Position numbers and translations under genes: made by a program. 47,514 bases of DNA from Candidatus Limicola stercorigallinarum (lineage in GTDB: Bacteria > Actinomycetota > Coriobacteriia > Coriobacteriales > Coriobacteriaceae), in the NCBI GenBank assembly GCA_018711625.1, contig DVID01000002.1:1-47514 (forward strand). The letters are read 5' to 3'. Positions 38,154 to 47,514 of the stretch are shown here, in pieces. A model generated the notes under the pieces. That model was not told the DNA's origin. It saw only the letters and a list, made by a program, of their open reading frames with translations, and searched no databases. Positions within the stretch are counted from its first letter, which is position 1. Every line of letters starts with the position of its first letter.

Positions 38154-40475
38154 ATGAAAAAGAAGACCCAGGATACCCCTTCCGCACCTGCATCGGATAA
38201 GCCGTTGCTCATCATGACCGATGACGACATCTATATGTTTGGCAACGGCACCTGGAAGCGCAGCTGGGAGAAGATGGGTGCCCACCCCGATGTTCAAGAC
38301 GACCAAGAGGGCTGGCATTTTTGCATTTGGGTACCGGATGTAAAGAGCGTGCATGTGGTGGGCGACTTTAACAACTGGGACCCCACCGCCAACAAGCTGA
38401 GCCCGGTAGGCAAAAGTGACATGTGGCAGGGCTTTGTACCCGGCCTCCAGCAGGGTGACCTGTATAAGTACGCCATTGAGACCAACGAGGGCAACCTGCT
38501 CTATAAGGCCGATCCTTACGCGTTTTACGCCGAGCAGACGCCCGGAACCGCCTCGCGCCTCATGGACATCACGGGCTATGAATGGGGCGACGATGAATGG
38601 CTTGAGCACCGTCGCACGCATAACCACATGACGCAGCCGCTCAATATCTACGAGGTTCACCTGGGTTCTTGGCGTCGCCATGGCAACGAGCCGCAGGGTG
38701 AGCCCGACGAGAACGGCAACTATCCTGGCCCGGGCGACCCCTTCCCGGCCCAGCGCGGCACCTTCTACACCTACGACGAGCTCTCGGTTGAGCTTGTTGA
38801 GTACGTGAAAGACATGGGCTACACCCATATCGAGCTCTTACCGGTGATGGAGCACCCCTTCGATGGTTCGTGGGGCTACCAGCCCACGGGTTACTTTGCG
38901 GTAACGAGCCGCTATGGCGAGCCCAAGCAGTTCATGCACTTCATCGACGCCTGCCACCAGGCGGGCATCGGCGTCATCCTCGACTGGGTGCCGGGCGGTT
39001 TCTGCGCCAACGAAGAGGGCCTTGCCACCTTCAACGGTCGCATGCTCTACGAGCGCGAGATCCATCCCAACTGGGGCACGCACAAGTTTGACTTCGGCCG
39101 TCCCGAGGTCCGCGGCTTCCTTACCTCAAACGCCCTGTTCTGGATTGAGATGTTCCACGCCGATGGCATCCGTATGGACGGCGTGTCGAGCATGCTCTAC
39201 CTCAACTTTGGCGTAGACGACCCCGGCCAGAAGAAGTTCAACAAGTACGGCACCGAGGAAGACCTTGACGCTTCGGCGTTCATCCGCCAGGTTAACTGCG
39301 CCGTAGCCAGCCTGTTCCCCGACGTGATGATGATCGCTGAGGAATCCACCGCCTGGCCGCTTGTTACCTATCCTCCTGAGGAAGGTGGCCTGGGCTTCCA
39401 CTACAAGTGGGACATGGGCTGGATGAACGACACCCTGCACTACATGCAGACCGACTTCCCGTGGCGTCCGGGCGCGCACCGGCTCCTCACGTTCTCGATT
39501 ATGTATGCATTCAACGAGAACTTTGTGTTGCCGCTCAGCCACGACGAGGTGGTCAACGGCAAGTGCTCCCTCATGGGCCGCATGCCGGGCGACCTCTGGC
39601 GCCAGTTTGCAGGCCTGCGCACCCTCGTGATGTATCAGATCACGCACCCCGGCGCCCAGCTCTCGTTCATGGGCAACGAGATTGCCCAGTTCATCGAGTG
39701 GCGCTACTACGAGTCCATCGAGTGGTTCCTCGCCGATGAGTACGAGACGCATCGCAACCACCGCACCTTCGTGAAGGCGCTCAACCATCTCTATCTCAAC
39801 GAGCCTGCGTTCTGGGAGAACTCCTACACCGAGGACGGTTTCTCGTGGATTGACGCGAACAACTCCAACCAGTCCATCATCTCGTTTGTGCGCAAGGGCG
39901 AAAACGAAGATGACGACCTGGTGGTGCTCATCAACTTCGACCCGGCGTCTTACGAGACGTTCCGCGTGGGTGTGCCGCGTGAGGGTGACTGGAAGGTCGT
40001 CTTCAACTCCGACGATCCCGCCTTTGGCGGCAGCGGCTACATGCTCGACAGCCTGAAAGATGCGGTGTGCCCGAGCGAGCCCTATCCGTGGAACGGCCGC
40101 GAGGAGTCGGTGAGCTTTAGCGTGCCCGGCCTTGCCGGTATTGTGCTGAAGCGCGTGGGGCCGAGCTCCTACGTGCCACCCAAGCCCAAGCGTCGCACAG
40201 CGCGTAAGAAGACAACCACAACCACCAAGAAGACTGCTGCCAAGAGCACCAAGAACACAACCTCTACTACGGCTAAAAAGACGGCCACCAAGGCTTCCTC
40301 CGCGAGCGCGTCTAAGGCCACAACAGCCAAGACCACCACGTCAAAGGCCAAGGCAACCACTGCGCGCACGAAGGCCACTGCGACTACAAGCACAACGAAA
40401 AAAGCCGCTTCCACCAAGACAACGACCAAGAAGTCGGGCACGGCGGGAAAGACAAGTTCTACCGCAACTGCCTAA
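38154..40475 (+). CDS. glgB: 1,4-alpha-glucan branching enzyme with histone-H1-like C-terminal tail
   Basis: Makes alpha-1,6 branches in glycogen (GH13). The CBM48 domain is near residues 40-150 (CIWVPDVKSVHVVGDFNNWD). The catalytic barrel has the nucleophile Asp342 in GIRMDGVSSML, the acid Glu396 in IAEESTAWP, and LSHDEVV. Residues 677-773, following GIVLKRVGPSSYVPP, are a Lys/Thr/Ala/Ser-rich tail of 97 residues (KPKRRTARKKTTTTTKKTAA at its start) with no acidic residue, like histone H1 or the HupB tail. The tail is not part of the known enzyme fold. The 773-residue length exceeds the usual 630-730. The start ATG lacks a strong ribosome-binding site. Confidence 0.96.
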   Translation: MKKKTQDTPSAPASDKPLLIMTDDDIYMFGNGTWKRSWEKMGAHPDVQDDQEGWHFCIWVPDVKSVHVVGDFNNWDPTANKLSPVGKSDMWQGFVPGLQQGDLYKYAIETNEGNLLYKADPYAFYAEQTPGTASRLMDITGYEWGDDEWLEHRRTHNHMTQPLNIYEVHLGSWRRHGNEPQGEPDENGNYPGPGDPFPAQRGTFYTYDELSVELVEYVKDMGYTHIELLPVMEHPFDGSWGYQPTGYFAVTSRYGEPKQFMHFIDACHQAGIGVILDWVPGGFCANEEGLATFNGRMLYEREIHPNWGTHKFDFGRPEVRGFLTSNALFWIEMFHADGIRMDGVSSMLYLNFGVDDPGQKKFNKYGTEEDLDASAFIRQVNCAVASLFPDVMMIAEESTAWPLVTYPPEEGGLGFHYKWDMGWMNDTLHYMQTDFPWRPGAHRLLTFSIMYAFNENFVLPLSHDEVVNGKCSLMGRMPGDLWRQFAGLRTLVMYQITHPGAQLSFMGNEIAQFIEWRYYESIEWFLADEYETHRNHRTFVKALNHLYLNEPAFWENSYTEDGFSWIDANNSNQSIISFVRKGENEDDDLVVLINFDPASYETFRVGVPREGDWKVVFNSDDPAFGGSGYMLDSLKDAVCPSEPYPWNGREESVSFSVPGLAGIVLKRVGPSSYVPPKPKRRTARKKTTTTTKKTAAKSTKNTTSTTAKKTATKASSASASKATTAKTTTSKAKATTARTKATATTSTTKKAASTKTTTKKSGTAGKTSSTATA

Positions 40476-40540: not shown

Positions 40541-42967
40541 ATGATTCAGATTTTTAAGGACAAGCAGGACTTCATCGACCAGTACCGCGCGATGGTCCGT
40601 GCGCACACGGGAAAAGATTTTGAGTCCTGCGGCTCGCATGACCGCTTCTATGCGCTTGCCGAGCTCATTGCAACGCGTGCTCGCCGCATCGCCAGCGACA
40701 ATGAGACCCAGATTGAGAAGCAGGGCAAGAAGCGTGTGTACTACTTCTCACTTGAGTTCCTCATTGGTCGCCTGCTCGATAACTACCTGCTGAACTTCGG
40801 CATTCGCGACATGGTTGCCGAGGCGCTCGAAGATATGGGCACCTCGCTTGAGGCGCTTGAGATCCGCGAGCCCGACGCGGCCCTGGGTAACGGCGGCCTC
40901 GGCCGCCTGGCAGCCTGCTTCTTGGCCTCCGCAGCCCACGAGGGCATCGCCTTCTACGGCAACGGCATGCGCTACGAGTACGGCCTCTTCAAGCAAGAGA
41001 TCGTGGACGGTCGCCAGGTAGAGGTTGCCGACGACTGGCTCAAGCACGGCTATCCGTGGGAGTCGCGCCGTCCCGAGAGCGCCGTCGAAGTTATTTTTGG
41101 CGGCACCTCGGTGAGCTACGAGCAGGATGGCCGCACCATGTACCGCACCGAGGGCGGGCAGAAAATCCTCGCCGTACCCTACGACATCCCCGTGGTGGCC
41201 TACGGCGGCGAGCTGGTGAACAAGCTGCGCGTATGGAAAGCCGAGCCCAACGAGGACCTCTTCAACCTCGATGCCTTCAACCGCGGCGATTACGCAAACG
41301 CCAACGCCGGCCGCGCTGAGGCTGAGGCCATCTCCACCATCCTCTACCCTGCCGACGCCGGTGAGCATGGCAAGATCCTCCGTCTGAAGCAGGAGTACCT
41401 CTTTGTGGCGGCTGGCATCAACTCCATCCTGCGCACCTTCCGCGCTGAGCATGGTACCGACTGGAAGCGCCTTCCTGAGTTTGTTGCCATCCACACCAAC
41501 GACACGCATCCTGCCATGTGCGGCCCCGAGCTCATGCGCGTCCTCATGGATGAGGAGGGCCTTGAGTGGAATGAGGCTTGGGATATCGTTACCAAGACGG
41601 TCTCCTTCACCAACCACACGGTGCTTCCCGAGGCACTCGAGAAGTGGCCCATCACCACGTTCAAGCCGCTCCTCCCTCGCCTCTATCAGATCATCGACGA
41701 GATTGCTCGCCGCTTCCGCGAGAGCTTCCCGACGGACAACCCCGAGTGGCGCGAGATGTTCCAGAAGACCGCCATCCTCTGGGATGGCGAGGTCCGCATG
41801 GCAAACCTCTCGATTGTGTGCAGCCATTCGGTGAACGGCGTGGCCGAGCTCCATACAAAGATTCTGAAGGAGCAGGTCTTCAAGGAGTTCTATGAGCTCA
41901 CGCCTGAGAAGTTCAACAACAAGACCAACGGCGTGACCCATCGTCGCTTCCTTGCAGAGGCCAACCCCTCTTATGCGAAGCTCATCACCAAGGCCATTGG
42001 CACCCGTTGGCTTGACGATGCCTTTGAGCTCAAGAAGCTCGAGCAGTTTGCCGATGACGAGGACTTCCTGCTTGCCATGGCAGCCTCTAAGCGTGAGAAC
42101 AAGGTGCGCCTGGCCTCCTACATCAAGGATGTCTGCGGCATCACCGTTGACCCGGATTCCGTCTTCGACGTGCAGGTGAAGCGCTTCCACGCCTACAAGC
42201 GTCAGCTGCTCAACATCTTCAAGGTGATGGACATCTACAACCGTCTCATCTCCGATCCGTCGTTCACGGTGCACCCCACCACCTTCATCTTCTCGGGCAA
42301 GGCAGCTCAGAGCTACTACTTCGCCAAGGAAGTCATCCGCCTCATCAACTCTGTGGCCGATGTCATCAACAACGACGAGCGCGTGAACAACCTTATCAAG
42401 GTTGTGTTCATCCCTAACTTCCGCGTCTCCAATGCGCAGCTCATTTACTCTGCTGCCGAGATCTCTGAGCAGATTTCCACCGCAGGCCAGGAGGCGTCCG
42501 GCACGTCCAACATGAAGCTCATGATGAACGGTGCCATCACGCTCGGCACGCTCGACGGTGCGAACATCGAGATCGCCAATCTCGCTGGCTATGAGAACGT
42601 CAAGATCTTCGGCCTCACCGAGCCTGAGGTGGTGGCCCTCCAGAAGAGCGGTCAATACTTCTCGTGGGATGAGTACAACGCCGACCGCGACCGTCTGGGC
42701 CGTTGCGTTGACGAACTCACCGACACCACCTTCTCGCACCTCTCGGGCACCTTTGACTCCATTCGTCGCGAGCTCATGGACAACAACGACCATGACCTCG
42801 TGCTCAAGGACTTCCGCTCCTATGTCCAGGCGTGGGAGGAGCTTGTGGGCACCTACGGCGACACGCTTGCGTGGAACCGCATGGCGCTCCATAACACGGC
42901 GAACTCGGGTTTCTTCTCGAGCGATCGCACCATCCGCGAATATCGCGATGAGATCTGGGGGGCGTGA
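40541..42967 (+). CDS. glgP: Glycogen phosphorylase
   Basis: Releases glucose-1-phosphate from glycogen ends, using pyridoxal phosphate. The 808-residue product has the GT35 blocks FLIGRLLDNYLLN, EPDAALGNGGLGRLAACFL and HTNDTHPAMCGPELMR. The cofactor Lys659 lies in EASGTSNMKLMMNGAITLG. The length is normal for bacterial enzymes. The ATG follows AAAGGAAAGC. It is the second gene of the cluster, between the branching enzyme and the ADP-glucose pyrophosphorylase genes, so breakdown and synthesis are encoded together. Confidence 0.97.
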   Translation: MIQIFKDKQDFIDQYRAMVRAHTGKDFESCGSHDRFYALAELIATRARRIASDNETQIEKQGKKRVYYFSLEFLIGRLLDNYLLNFGIRDMVAEALEDMGTSLEALEIREPDAALGNGGLGRLAACFLASAAHEGIAFYGNGMRYEYGLFKQEIVDGRQVEVADDWLKHGYPWESRRPESAVEVIFGGTSVSYEQDGRTMYRTEGGQKILAVPYDIPVVAYGGELVNKLRVWKAEPNEDLFNLDAFNRGDYANANAGRAEAEAISTILYPADAGEHGKILRLKQEYLFVAAGINSILRTFRAEHGTDWKRLPEFVAIHTNDTHPAMCGPELMRVLMDEEGLEWNEAWDIVTKTVSFTNHTVLPEALEKWPITTFKPLLPRLYQIIDEIARRFRESFPTDNPEWREMFQKTAILWDGEVRMANLSIVCSHSVNGVAELHTKILKEQVFKEFYELTPEKFNNKTNGVTHRRFLAEANPSYAKLITKAIGTRWLDDAFELKKLEQFADDEDFLLAMAASKRENKVRLASYIKDVCGITVDPDSVFDVQVKRFHAYKRQLLNIFKVMDIYNRLISDPSFTVHPTTFIFSGKAAQSYYFAKEVIRLINSVADVINNDERVNNLIKVVFIPNFRVSNAQLIYSAAEISEQISTAGQEASGTSNMKLMMNGAITLGTLDGANIEIANLAGYENVKIFGLTEPEVVALQKSGQYFSWDEYNADRDRLGRCVDELTDTTFSHLSGTFDSIRRELMDNNDHDLVLKDFRSYVQAWEELVGTYGDTLAWNRMALHNTANSGFFSSDRTIREYRDEIWGA

Positions 42968-43084: not shown

Positions 43085-44230
43085 ATGAGCAAAAAAGAAT
43101 GCATCGCCATGCTCCTCGCTGGAGGGCAGGGAAGCAGGTTGGGGGCGCTCACGTCTAAGATCGCCAAACCTGCCGTCTCATTCGGAGGTAAGTACCGTAT
43201 CATCGACTTCACGTTGTCAAACTGCGCGAATTCCGGCATTGACACGGTGGGTGTGCTCACGCAGTATCGCCCCTACCGTCTCCATGCCTACCTGGGATCC
43301 GGCTCAGCGTGGGATCTTGACGAGCGTGGCGGCGGAGTATCCATCCTCCCGCCGTATGCCACGCAGGACGGCGGCGCTTGGTATGCGGGTACCGCCGACG
43401 CGGTGACGCAGAACCTTGATTACATCAAGTCGCACGATCCTGAGTACGTGCTCATCCTCTCCGGCGACGCACTGTATCGCATGGATTATCGCGAGATGCT
43501 GCAGACCCATATCGATAACAACGCCGACCTCACGGTTGCCGTCATGCCCGTGCCCTGGGAGGAAGCCAGCCGCTTTGGCATCCTTACCACCGATGACGAC
43601 GGCCGTATCGTGAAGTTCACCGAGAAGCCCGAGAAGCCGGATTCAAACCTTGCCTCCATGGGCATCTACATCTTCACGGCTGATTTCCTGATCAAGGCCC
43701 TCGAAGAGGACGATGTCGACCAGCGCTCGAGCCACGACTTTGGCGGCGACATCATCCCCAAGGCTCTCGCCGACGGCAAGCGCCTGTTTGTCCATAAATT
43801 CCATGGCTTCTGGAAAGACGTAGGCACCATCGCGAGCTATCACGAGACGAGCATGGACCTGCTGGGGCCGAACCCCTACTTCGACCTCTATGACGAGCAG
43901 ACCCCCATCATGAGCAACGACACCACGCGTCCGCCGCACTACATTGGGCCTGAGGGCCGCGTGGACGACTGCCTGGTCTCCAACGGCTGCGAGATCCTGG
44001 GCACTGCTCGCCATTCTGTGATTTCCACCGACTGCTACATTGGCGAGCGCGCCATCGTCGAGGATTCCGTCATGCTCCCCGGTGCCATCGTCAAGGAGGG
44101 TGCACATGTTTCGCGGGCCATCCTGGGCGAGAACGCCGTCGTTGAGGAGGGCGTGAAGCTCGGTAGCGTCGACACCACGAAGGACACGGCTGTCGTTGGA
44201 AACGACGTCGTCATCGGGAAGGGGGAATGA
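43085..44230 (+). CDS. glgC: Glucose-1-phosphate adenylyltransferase, catalytic subunit
   Basis: Makes ADP-glucose, the donor for glycogen synthase. The 381-residue product keeps the nucleotide-binding loop [20 protein letters not shown] and [26 protein letters not shown] has the catalytic Asp, and FTEKPEKP is also present. A left-handed beta-helix domain follows (residues about 290-381, with [20 protein letters not shown]). These intact motifs mark it as the active partner of the GlgD protein that follows. The ATG has GAAGGAGAAC upstream, and the gene ends 4 bases before the glgD start. Confidence 0.96.
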
Positions 44231-44234
44231 ACCG

Positions 44235-45341
44235 ATGATCAACCGCAAGGCCATCGGCTATATCACCGCTAACTACGCCGGCTCCGAGCGCAGTGCTCTG
44301 CTCGACAGCCGTCCGCTCGCATCCATCCCCTTCATGGGCCGCTACCGCCTCATTGACTTCCCGCTTTCCAATATGGCAAACGCGGGCATTAAGACGGTCG
44401 GCTTGGTGATGCCGGGCAATTACCGTTCCATCATCGACCATGTGGGTCACGGCAAGGACTGGGGCCTCGACCGCAAGAAGGGCGGCCTCTTCCCGCTTCC
44501 GGGTAACCCCTATGGTGCCACCAAGCAGGGCATGCGCTTCTTGCTGCGCGACATCATCTCCAACAAGACCCTCTTCGAGCGCTCCGACAAGCCCTATGTT
44601 GTGCTCATGGGCACCAACATCATCTGCAACCTCGACCTCAACGCCATCATCGAGGCGCACGAGAACTCCGGCGTGGGCATGACGCTCGTGTATGTGAAGG
44701 CCGAGCGCAAGCACACCGACTGCAGCCGCCTTATCATTGGCGATGCCGGCCGCGTGAAAGCCGTTGAGCCAGGCTGCGAGTATGGCGACAACAAGTTCAT
44801 CGACTGCTTCGTGGTCAACCGTAAACTGCTCCTGAAGATCATCGATCAATACGCCTCGGCCGACTATCTCGACATCTTTGAGGCCATCGCGCCCGACTTT
44901 GAGCGCATCGATGTGTGCAGCTACGAGTTCAAGGGTCTCGCGGTGGGCATCTTTGGCGAGGACACCTACTATGCGCGTAGCATGGAGATGCTCAATCCCA
45001 AGGTCTGCAACGAGCTCTTCATGAAGGACCGCCCGGTTCTCACCAAGGCTCACGACGCACCCCCCGCGAAGTACTCCGCCGGTTCGCTCGCTTGCAACTC
45101 GCGCATCTCCGCAGGCTGCAAGATCGACGGCACGGTGCGCAACTCCATCCTGGCACGTGGCGTTATCGTCGAGAGCGGCGCCAGCGTTCAGGACAGCATC
45201 ATCATGCAGTCCTGCGTCATCAAGCGTGGCGCACGCGTTGAGAACGCCATCGTGGACAAGAACAACACCATCTCGGCCAACACCGAGCTGCGCGGAACGC
45301 CCGATCACATCCTTGTTGTTGGCAAGGGTGCCCTCGCTTAA
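44235..45341 (+). CDS. glgD: Glucose-1-phosphate adenylyltransferase regulatory subunit
   Basis: Partner of GlgC that raises activity of the complex. The 368-residue product has the fold but a degenerate active-site loop: ITANYAGSERSALLDSRPLA replaces the GGxGxRL loop. FMGRYRLIDFPLSNMANAGI and the C-terminal beta-helix (CKIDGTVRNSILARGVIVES) remain. This pattern is typical of GlgD in Firmicutes. ATG 44235 has AAGGGGGAATG upstream, and the gene follows glgC by 4 bases. Together with glgC it implies a heteromeric enzyme. Confidence 0.93.
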   Translation: MINRKAIGYITANYAGSERSALLDSRPLASIPFMGRYRLIDFPLSNMANAGIKTVGLVMPGNYRSIIDHVGHGKDWGLDRKKGGLFPLPGNPYGATKQGMRFLLRDIISNKTLFERSDKPYVVLMGTNIICNLDLNAIIEAHENSGVGMTLVYVKAERKHTDCSRLIIGDAGRVKAVEPGCEYGDNKFIDCFVVNRKLLLKIIDQYASADYLDIFEAIAPDFERIDVCSYEFKGLAVGIFGEDTYYARSMEMLNPKVCNELFMKDRPVLTKAHDAPPAKYSAGSLACNSRISAGCKIDGTVRNSILARGVIVESGASVQDSIIMQSCVIKRGARVENAIVDKNNTISANTELRGTPDHILVVGKGALA

Positions 45342-45477: not shown

Positions 45478-47514
45478 ATGGCTAAGAAATTGCAAGTGGT
45501 GTTTGCTTCCGCCGAAGCGGCTCCCTTTGTTAAAACTGGCGGCCTGGGTGACGTTGCCGGTTCCCTTCCCAAAGCGCTGAAGCGCGCCGGCGCCGACGTT
45601 ATCGTAATGGTTCCCAAATACAGCACCATCCCCGACGTGTTCCGCGAGAAGATGGAGCACGTTGCCGACTTTTACGTTAGCCTCGGTTGGCGCAACGAGT
45701 ACTGTGGTCTCGAGCGCCTCGATGTTGACGGAGTGACCTATCTCTTCATCGACAACGAGCACTACTTTGCTCGCAGCTACCCCTATGGCTTCTTTGACGA
45801 TGGCGAGCGCTTTGCATTCTTCTCCAAGGCCGTCACCGAAAGCCTGCAGCACCTTCCTGAAGGCTTCACCTGCGATGTGCTTCACTGCAACGACTGGCAC
45901 ACCGCCCTTGCTCCCGTCTTTTTGCGCGAGTTCTACCAGGGCCTGCCGCTCTATGAGCGCGTGAAGACGGTCTTCTCGATTCACAACATCGCCTTCCAGG
46001 GCCAGTTCTCCGACACCGTCCTGAACGACGTGCTTGGCTTGGCACACATCCCCAACGCTGCCCGTCAGCTGCGCTGCGATGCCAACTCCGTCAACTACAT
46101 GCTCGGTGCCCTCAACTATACCGACCGCATCACCACGGTGAGCCCCACCTATGCGGCCGAGATTCAAACGCCCGAGTACGGCGAGCATCTTGACGGTGTT
46201 CTGCGTCGTCGCAACAACATCCTGCGCGGTATCCTGAACGGCATCGACACCGTTGATTGGGATCCTGCAACCGATTACCAACTCACCGAGAACTATCACG
46301 TGGGCGATATGGAGGGCAAGGCTGCCTGCAAGGCTGCGCTCCAGCAGGAGCTGGGTCTTGAGGTGCGCGCCGACCGCCCGCTCATGGTCATGGTCACCCG
46401 CCTTACGCGCCAGAAGGGCATGGACCTGGTCACCTACTCGCTCGATCGCATCCTTTCCGGCGGCGTCCAGGTTGCCGTTCTGGGCACGGGCGATTACGAG
46501 GAGTCCATGCGCTACTTCTCCAACAAGTATCCGGGCTCCATGGCAGCGCGCATCACTTTCGACTCCGCCCTCTCCCGCCGCATGTACTCCGGCGCCGACA
46601 TGTTCCTCATGCCGTCGCTCTTTGAGCCCTGCGGCCTCTCGCAGATCATCGCCATGCGCTACGGCACCCTGCCCATCGTGCGCGAAACCGGCGGTTTGCG
46701 CGATACCGTTATCCCCTACAACCAGTTCACCGGTGAGGGCACCGGCTTCTCGTTCACCCACTTCAACGGTGACGAGATGGGCGATGCGGTCTTCCGCGCC
46801 GCACGCCTCTTCTGGGACAACCGCGACGCGTGGAACAAGGTCGTTGAGCAGGCCATGACTAAGGACTTCTCGTGGACCCGCTCGGCAGACGAGTACATCA
46901 AGCTCTACCTTGAGCTTGCCGGTGATACCGAGGTGATGCCCGAGCCGGTATCCACGCCTGAGCCGGCACCTGAACCCGAGCCCGAGGTTGTTCCCGCTCC
47001 GGAACCCGAGCCCGTGCAGGAGCCGGCAGAAGAGCCCCAGACCGCAGAGGCTGCTGACGTTGAGGCAGACGTAAAGCCTGTTGAGGCTGAGGAGAAGCCC
47101 GCCGAGGTTGAAGCACCCGCGGCAGAGAAGGCCGCTGAGCCGGAACTTGAGAAGGAAGCCCCGGCTGCCAAGCCTGCTGCTAAGACCACTACGGCCAAGA
47201 AGACGGCAACCAAGACCACGGCTGCGAAGGCAACCACCACCAAGGCAAAGGCTGCCACTACAAAGACGAAGACGACTACTGCCAAGGCTACCGCTACCAA
47301 GACAACTGCGACCAAGACTGCGTCCAAGACCGCAGCGAAGGCCACGACCACTAAGGCTGCGGCAACAAAGACCGCCACTAAGGCTGCTGAGAAGCCGGCA
47401 ACGGCCACCAAGGCTGCAGCTTCCAAGACGACCGCGACGAAGGCTGCATCCACCACGGCAACAAAGACCACGGCAGCGAAGGCTACCGCCACAAAGGCAG
47501 CCCCTAAGACCGCG
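45478..47514 (+). CDS. glgA: Glycogen synthase (GT5) with acidic linker and histone-like tail; cut by window end
   Basis: Extends glycogen using ADP-glucose. The protein begins MAKKLQVVFASAEAAPFVKT, with the ADP-binding KTGGLGD at 19-25. HNIAFQGQF, LNGIDTVDWDP, TRLTRQKGMDL and the catalytic-end motif FEPCGLSQIIAMRYG follow. The enzyme domain ends near residue 484. A Pro/Glu-rich acidic linker (485-561, e.g. PEPAPEPEPEVVP) follows. From residue 562 a Lys/Thr/Ala-rich basic tail (AKTTTAKKTATKTTAAKA and onward) reaches the last base with no stop, so at least 118 tail residues exist and the true end is outside the window. The ATG has TTGGAGG upstream. The tail parallels that of GlgB. Confidence 0.96.
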   Translation, partial: MAKKLQVVFASAEAAPFVKTGGLGDVAGSLPKALKRAGADVIVMVPKYSTIPDVFREKMEHVADFYVSLGWRNEYCGLERLDVDGVTYLFIDNEHYFARSYPYGFFDDGERFAFFSKAVTESLQHLPEGFTCDVLHCNDWHTALAPVFLREFYQGLPLYERVKTVFSIHNIAFQGQFSDTVLNDVLGLAHIPNAARQLRCDANSVNYMLGALNYTDRITTVSPTYAAEIQTPEYGEHLDGVLRRRNNILRGILNGIDTVDWDPATDYQLTENYHVGDMEGKAACKAALQQELGLEVRADRPLMVMVTRLTRQKGMDLVTYSLDRILSGGVQVAVLGTGDYEESMRYFSNKYPGSMAARITFDSALSRRMYSGADMFLMPSLFEPCGLSQIIAMRYGTLPIVRETGGLRDTVIPYNQFTGEGTGFSFTHFNGDEMGDAVFRAARLFWDNRDAWNKVVEQAMTKDFSWTRSADEYIKLYLELAGDTEVMPEPVSTPEPAPEPEPEVVPAPEPEPVQEPAEEPQTAEAADVEADVKPVEAEEKPAEVEAPAAEKAAEPELEKEAPAAKPAAKTTTAKKTATKTTAAKATTTKAKAATTKTKTTTAKATATKTTATKTASKTAAKATTTKAAATKTATKAAEKPATATKAAASKTTATKAASTTATKTTAAKATATKAAPKTA

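Follow-up and report, generated by a model that had tools for sequence, protein, structure and literature searches.

Several bacteria are already known to possess histone H1-like tails and to employ them on storage granules. The C-terminal histone-like domain of PhaF and PhaM binds DNA non-specifically and ties PHB granules to the nucleoid (PMC13052382, PMC3574117), and AlgP of Pseudomonas aeruginosa possesses an H1-like tail that is needed for the spacing of polyphosphate granules (PMC9239181). The C-terminal domain of mycobacterial HupB is required for stable association with DNA in vivo (PMC5676037). Actinobacterial topoisomerase I carries H1-like lysine repeats that stabilise its binding to DNA and raise its processivity (PMC7398561). 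Here, we describe a polycationic tail of H1-type composition on the branching enzyme GlgB of Coriobacteriia and a second tail on the glycogen synthase GlgA of Coriobacteriaceae. To our knowledge, such tails are new on glycogen-building enzymes. Full-text searches of open-licence papers for GlgB or GlgA tails that are rich in lysine or disordered, and for Collinsella GlgB, yielded no report, though mention elsewhere is possible, and a 2024 review on the alpha-glucan enzymes of prokaryotes does not, in its accessible part, mention such a tail.

The analysed window is one whole contig (C8; 47,514 nucleotides) of a 1.96-Mb genome in 49 contigs (G000), and its right end is occupied by a glycogen operon of glgB, glgP, glgC, glgD, and glgA (Table 1). 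The glgB product scored above the cut-offs of the NCBIfam equivalogs PRK12313 (808.8 bits, cut-off 577, residues 21-667), PRK05402 (801, cut-off 741), and TIGR01515 (729, cut-off 464), and these full-length matches identify it as a GlgB with predicted branching activity. Only the three Pfam domains listed in Table 1 exceeded their cut-offs. Alpha-amylase_C spans residues 565-667, the NCBIfam GlgB models stop at 666-667, and solved bacterial GlgB chains align to query residue 667 at most, with the solved E. coli enzyme reaching only as far as the core end. In an AlphaFold2 model built from 27 relatives, the last predicted strand comprises residues 661-669. The tail makes up exactly the last 97 codons of the gene (residues 677-773), followed directly by the stop at 40473-40475. 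It is predicted to be disordered, with pLDDT below 50 over residues 681-773 and at about 27-35 through the tail. A glucan-branching core with CBM48 and a polycationic tail are hence present in a single protein.

Table 1. Features of the glycogen operon and of one further tailed gene. Positions refer to the window unless another contig is given.
Feature	Position	Strand	Basis
glgB, 1,4-alpha-glucan branching enzyme (GH13 with CBM48), 773 aa including tail	38154..40475	+	PRK12313; Pfam CBM_48, Alpha-amylase, Alpha-amylase_C
Junction from last beta strand of GlgB core to tail, contains SSYVPP	40161..40181	+	strand 661-669, then coil (model)
GlgB C-terminal polycationic tail, predicted disordered, 97 aa, net +26, no D/E	40182..40472	+	composition, pLDDT, class-wide conservation, lysine constraint
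glgP, glycogen phosphorylase, no tail	40541..42967	+	TIGR02093 1024.5 bits, residues 8-807 of 808
glgC, glucose-1-phosphate adenylyltransferase, no tail	43085..44230	+	PRK05293 538 bits
glgD, adenylyltransferase-like subunit, no tail	44196..45341	+	TIGR02092 317 bits
glgA, glycogen synthase, core to about residue 480, then tail	45478..47514	+	PRK00654 650 bits (cut-off 603), residues 6-480
GlgA tail, acidic Pro/Glu-rich first block, about 86 aa, net -18	46933..47190	+	composition
GlgA tail, basic Lys/Thr/Ala block; window ends inside	47191..47514	+	composition; tandem array
DNA topoisomerase I, short H1-like lysine-rich C-terminus	G000:C35:68159-70741 (L194:8159-10741)	-	genome scan

The first-pass annotation of this DNA had described 97 residues dominated by Lys, Arg, Thr, Ser, and Ala and free of Asp and Glu, lying outside the known branching-enzyme fold. 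The composition count (T35 K22 A20 S12 R4 G2 P1 N1, i.e., 26 Lys/Arg) and the domain and model boundaries agree with this description. Its comparison with the tails of histone H1 and HupB holds for gross composition, as the tail is a Lys/Ala-rich, nearly acid-free C-terminus (K22 R4 D0 E0 of 97) with predicted disorder, but does not extend to the motifs PAKK, KAAK, and KPAA, each of which occurs zero times in the window tail. The Pfam search of GlgB detected neither a phasin domain of the PhaF type nor an HU domain (PF00216), and no solved structure resembling the tail was found. A search for a phage relative of the tail gave no match with the low-complexity filter on, which makes it uninformative.

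Codon usage in the tail is mixed for Thr (ACC12 ACA10 ACG7 ACT6) and Ala (GCC8 GCG6 GCT4 GCA2), and skewed for Lys (19 AAG versus 3 AAA). Repeated 9-mers in the tail DNA (3) were not in excess over synonymous-codon permutations (mean 5.2). The tail in its present state is therefore not a product of recent slippage, as had been argued from the mixed Thr codons in the first place. Selection on protein composition, likewise proposed at that stage, is borne out by 22 Collinsella relatives of the C. aerofaciens type. In their tail columns, conservation was 95% for Lys, 83% for Ala, 76% for Pro, and 67% for Thr. Among single-nucleotide nonsynonymous codon pairs, those involving Asp or Glu were rarer than expected (6 of 98 versus 13-15%; p about 0.01-0.02, a rough value because the counts ignore the tree). 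The pN/pS ratio was 0.45 in the tail versus 0.027 in the core. The composition, lysine above all, is held by selection while residue order drifts.

The homologue survey across Coriobacteriia that the first-pass annotation had called for yielded 109 distinct GlgB tails, which have a median length of 74 aa and a median net charge of +20, with 100 of them at +9 or above. Composition is common to these tails as a set, their sequence is not, and length (7-267 aa) and residue order vary. At least one PAKK, KAAK, or KPAA motif is present in 76/109 tails (KPAA in 56), and YVPP or YKPP opens 44 of them. Aromatic, aliphatic, and Cys residues together amount to about 6% of tail residues. Thr contributes 12% class-wide, which makes the window tail a Thr-rich variant; a Thr phosphorylation switch as common function was rejected on this ground. 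Net charge is +5 or lower in 5/109 tails, so the function of the tail can be lost. Among the exceptions to a charge of +9 or above are Atopobium fossor (L055) and Collinsella massiliensis (L020), the latter with almost no GlgB tail and yet a GlgA tail of 295 aa and net +29. Close relatives do carry the tail, throughout the class, and their frame stays open into a similarly composed tail, which excludes a frameshift artefact. A terminal motif like RSAAAKKAAATRKANAAKKAAE ends the GlgB tails of nine gut and rumen Coriobacteriia (L036, L038, L039, L041, L044, L047, L048, L050, L067) and is the only well-conserved sequence motif seen among distant tails.

The sampled Firmicutes and other outsiders have a median GlgB tail of 8 aa with net +1, and eleven GlgBs of other Actinomycetota (L311-L321) have tails of at most 12 aa without basic character. 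Where Coriobacteriia genomes encode a second GlgB paralogue (about 40-46% identity), it lacked a basic tail in 7/7 cases with a readable C-terminus; thirteen further paralogue fragments had no readable C-terminus. A general property of branching enzymes is thereby ruled out; the tail is a property of this GlgB orthologue in this class.

Such stretches are rare within the genome. We scanned all 49 contigs (two short ones reading N) and about 1,700 greedily chosen ORFs for 50-aa windows with at least 9 Lys, at most 3 acidic residues, and at least 38 residues of K/R/A/T/S/P. Only GlgB, GlgA, and topoisomerase I contained one, which rules out chance. The glgB neighbourhoods of 51 Coriobacteriia loci comprise 663 ORFs. 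A 40-aa basic window was present in 49 of them; each of these was glgB (34) or glgA (15), and no third gene was found. A general habit of basic tails in the proteome is ruled out by both results. Basic tails in this genome are restricted to the two glucan-building enzymes and topoisomerase I. Two own-genome matches of the tail search, on contigs C3 and C7, are attributable to chance (E 0.08 and 0.5).

Attention had initially been confined to GlgB, and that account of a tailed enzyme stands for GlgB but missed GlgA, which is encoded in the same operon and is likewise tailed. GlgA runs off contig C8 and continues on G000:C5:1-237. The contig ends share a 54-nt identical, in-frame overlap, and the joined protein has 740 aa, with a tail of 255 aa that ends in KKAASRGRK. 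Its exact tail length is uncertain because the contig breaks inside the tail, probably as a result of the repeat. Including the part on C5, the basic block has 169 aa and net +34, and the acidic-then-basic arrangement is segregated more strongly than in shuffled sequences (z 2.4). Most Coriobacteriaceae have a GlgA tail with a negative first quarter; some Collinsella tails (L015, L023, L057, L068) are not net-acidic there. GlgA open frames, as stop-to-stop lengths, are 612-882 aa in Coriobacteriaceae, except for genus g5 (505-532 aa), and mostly 492-592 aa in Atopobiaceae. The readable Atopobiaceae GlgAs end at the core, and the GlgB tails in that family are strongly basic. Compared with the GlgB tail, that of GlgA is younger or more narrowly distributed. 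Short basic GlgA tails also occur in three Clostridia-type genomes (L059, L072, L074), two of which (L072, L074) have them on GlgB, too; these are perhaps convergent.

What could a selected polycation contribute to a branching enzyme? Glycogen is a neutral, uncharged polymer. The tail is therefore unlikely to serve the active site or to raise processivity by electrostatic substrate binding, and more likely links the glycogen-bound enzyme to a negatively charged partner. We consider a tether to some polyanion probable. A polycation of +26 would bind any polyanion, so it is analogy that singles out DNA, and the nucleoid as main partner is a tentative choice to which we give somewhat less than an even chance. 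In E. coli, glycogen forms condensates that collect at the old pole and displace the nucleoid (PMC12706056), a difficulty that tethering would remove. Together with the storage-granule precedents, this makes a glycogen-nucleoid tether our preferred model. It is intriguing to propose, just short of even confidence, that the tail is a selected, disordered polycation which anchors newly made glycogen on a polyanion of the cell, with chromosomal DNA as the likeliest one. Briefly, the folded part of GlgB would sit on the storage polymer and the H1-like tail on the nucleoid, thereby holding the branching enzyme, and hence the growing glycogen particle, on chromosomal DNA. Tethered glycogen might then stay dispersed along the nucleoid and be shared between daughter cells instead of coalescing at a pole. 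GlgA of Coriobacteriaceae (Collinsella, Enorma) would later have gained its second tail, adding valency. We infer polyanion binding, DNA as main partner, and granule positioning from composition, conservation, and precedent.

Several findings count against the tether, namely the absence of PAKK, KAAK, and KPAA from the window tail, the five tails at net +5 or lower, and the lack of an HU/IHF match (PF00216) in this genome (the nucleoid surface of this class is poorly understood). Tblastn with HU of E. coli and B. subtilis also returned nothing from the own genome. PF00216 matched in 1/248 Coriobacteriia genomes, in a search whose control was positive in 9/14 named genomes; one paper, at odds with this, lists HU proteins of Coriobacteriia (PMC5683647). 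The apparent scarcity of HU in the sampled genomes provides the setting for a more far-reaching and rather doubtful proposal, in which GlgB, and in Coriobacteriaceae also GlgA, would be polymer-building enzymes, nucleoid tethers, and possibly nucleoid-organising proteins at once, with a mutual influence between glycogen stores and the packing of the chromosome.

Other anionic partners could be bound in place of DNA. The tail might bind polyphosphate and either couple both storage polymers or localise glycogen to polyphosphate granules, which is unlikely but the foremost of the alternatives. PPK1 (PF02503) is encoded by this genome and by most species with a tail, tails of PPK1-less species are shorter and less charged (median net +12.5 versus +22, Mann-Whitney p 0.03; p 0.02 within family f2), and AlgP shows that such tails reach polyphosphate granules (PMC9239181). 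This correlation is weak and confounded by phylogeny and genome reduction, with genus g15 supplying several of the PPK1-less cases. In addition, three PPK1-less species (G125, G157, G224) retain tails of +37, +29, and +25, and polyphosphate made by PPK1 is thus unnecessary for keeping a long tail. The anionic partner could also sit within the operon itself, if the acidic block of GlgA serves as binding site for the basic GlgB tail and elongation and branching proceed in one condensate on glycogen. The shared operon, the segregated charges of the GlgA tail, and its negative first quarter in most Coriobacteriaceae fit such co-assembly, which we nevertheless regard as unlikely too, given the four Collinsella tails without a net-acidic first quarter and the strongly basic GlgB tails of Atopobiaceae whose readable GlgAs end at the core. 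Since GlgB tails occur where GlgA has none, co-assembly can only be a later addition, a plausible extra in Coriobacteriaceae. Association with RNA and ribosomes or with an anionic membrane, which would bring the synthesis of glycogen close to polysomes or to the membrane, seems fairly improbable. Tail charge and predicted disorder permit it, and no result separates RNA from DNA binding, but the low content of aromatic, aliphatic, and Cys residues leaves no amphipathic or hydrophobic element for membrane insertion.

The tail might instead require no partner. As an entropic bristle or solubility tail, it would prevent aggregation or coalescence of the glycogen-bound enzyme, and its free length and order are in accordance with such a role. 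However, a bristle could just as well be acidic or neutral, Lys is more constrained than other residues and acids are under-represented, and other folded enzymes of the genome do without such a tail; we thus consider this role very unlikely. Still less credible is the idea that repeats expanded neutrally, without any function, at the 3' terminus of glgB. It would agree with the low-complexity composition and with a tail pN/pS far above that of the core, but is largely refuted by the constraint analysis, i.e., Lys conservation and depletion of acidic changes, and is further opposed by the mixed codons, the lack of DNA repeat excess, the class-wide retention, and the rarity of such stretches among the genome's ORFs.

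How bacteria place glycogen and share it between daughter cells is largely open. The charge-conserved GlgB tail, kept on the branching enzyme throughout a class of bacteria that are common in the gut, suggests a convergent answer, in parallel to the H1-like tails that unrelated bacteria use for PHB and polyphosphate granules. It also suggests that H1-like tails deserve more than dismissal as low-complexity sequence. As a single deletable domain with a clear readout, the GlgB tail is, moreover, a transplantable module.

Among the closest known systems, canonical GlgB (E. coli, M. tuberculosis, cyanobacteria) shares the catalytic core and the C-terminal beta domain, but models and solved chains align only to query residues 661-667 and the tail has no counterpart there. 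HupB is also an actinobacterial protein with a Lys/Ala-rich, H1/H5-like tail, yet it has an HU domain that GlgB lacks, and PAKK and KAAK are missing from the window tail. Topoisomerase I resembles GlgB as an enzyme extended by H1-like lysine repeats, a feature that the own-genome topoisomerase I shows as well, but its substrate polymer is DNA, whereas that of GlgB is uncharged. AlgP likewise has a long, disordered, Lys/Ala/Pro-rich C-terminus resembling the H1 tail; it differs in its helical N-terminal domain in place of an enzyme core and in 25 perfect KPAA repeats, as opposed to none in the window tail. Like PhaF and PhaM, GlgB would be a storage-granule protein with one part on the polymer and another that is histone-like. 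Unlike in these proteins, the polymer is glycogen, the tail is part of the very enzyme that builds the polymer, a phasin domain is absent, and DNA binding is putative.
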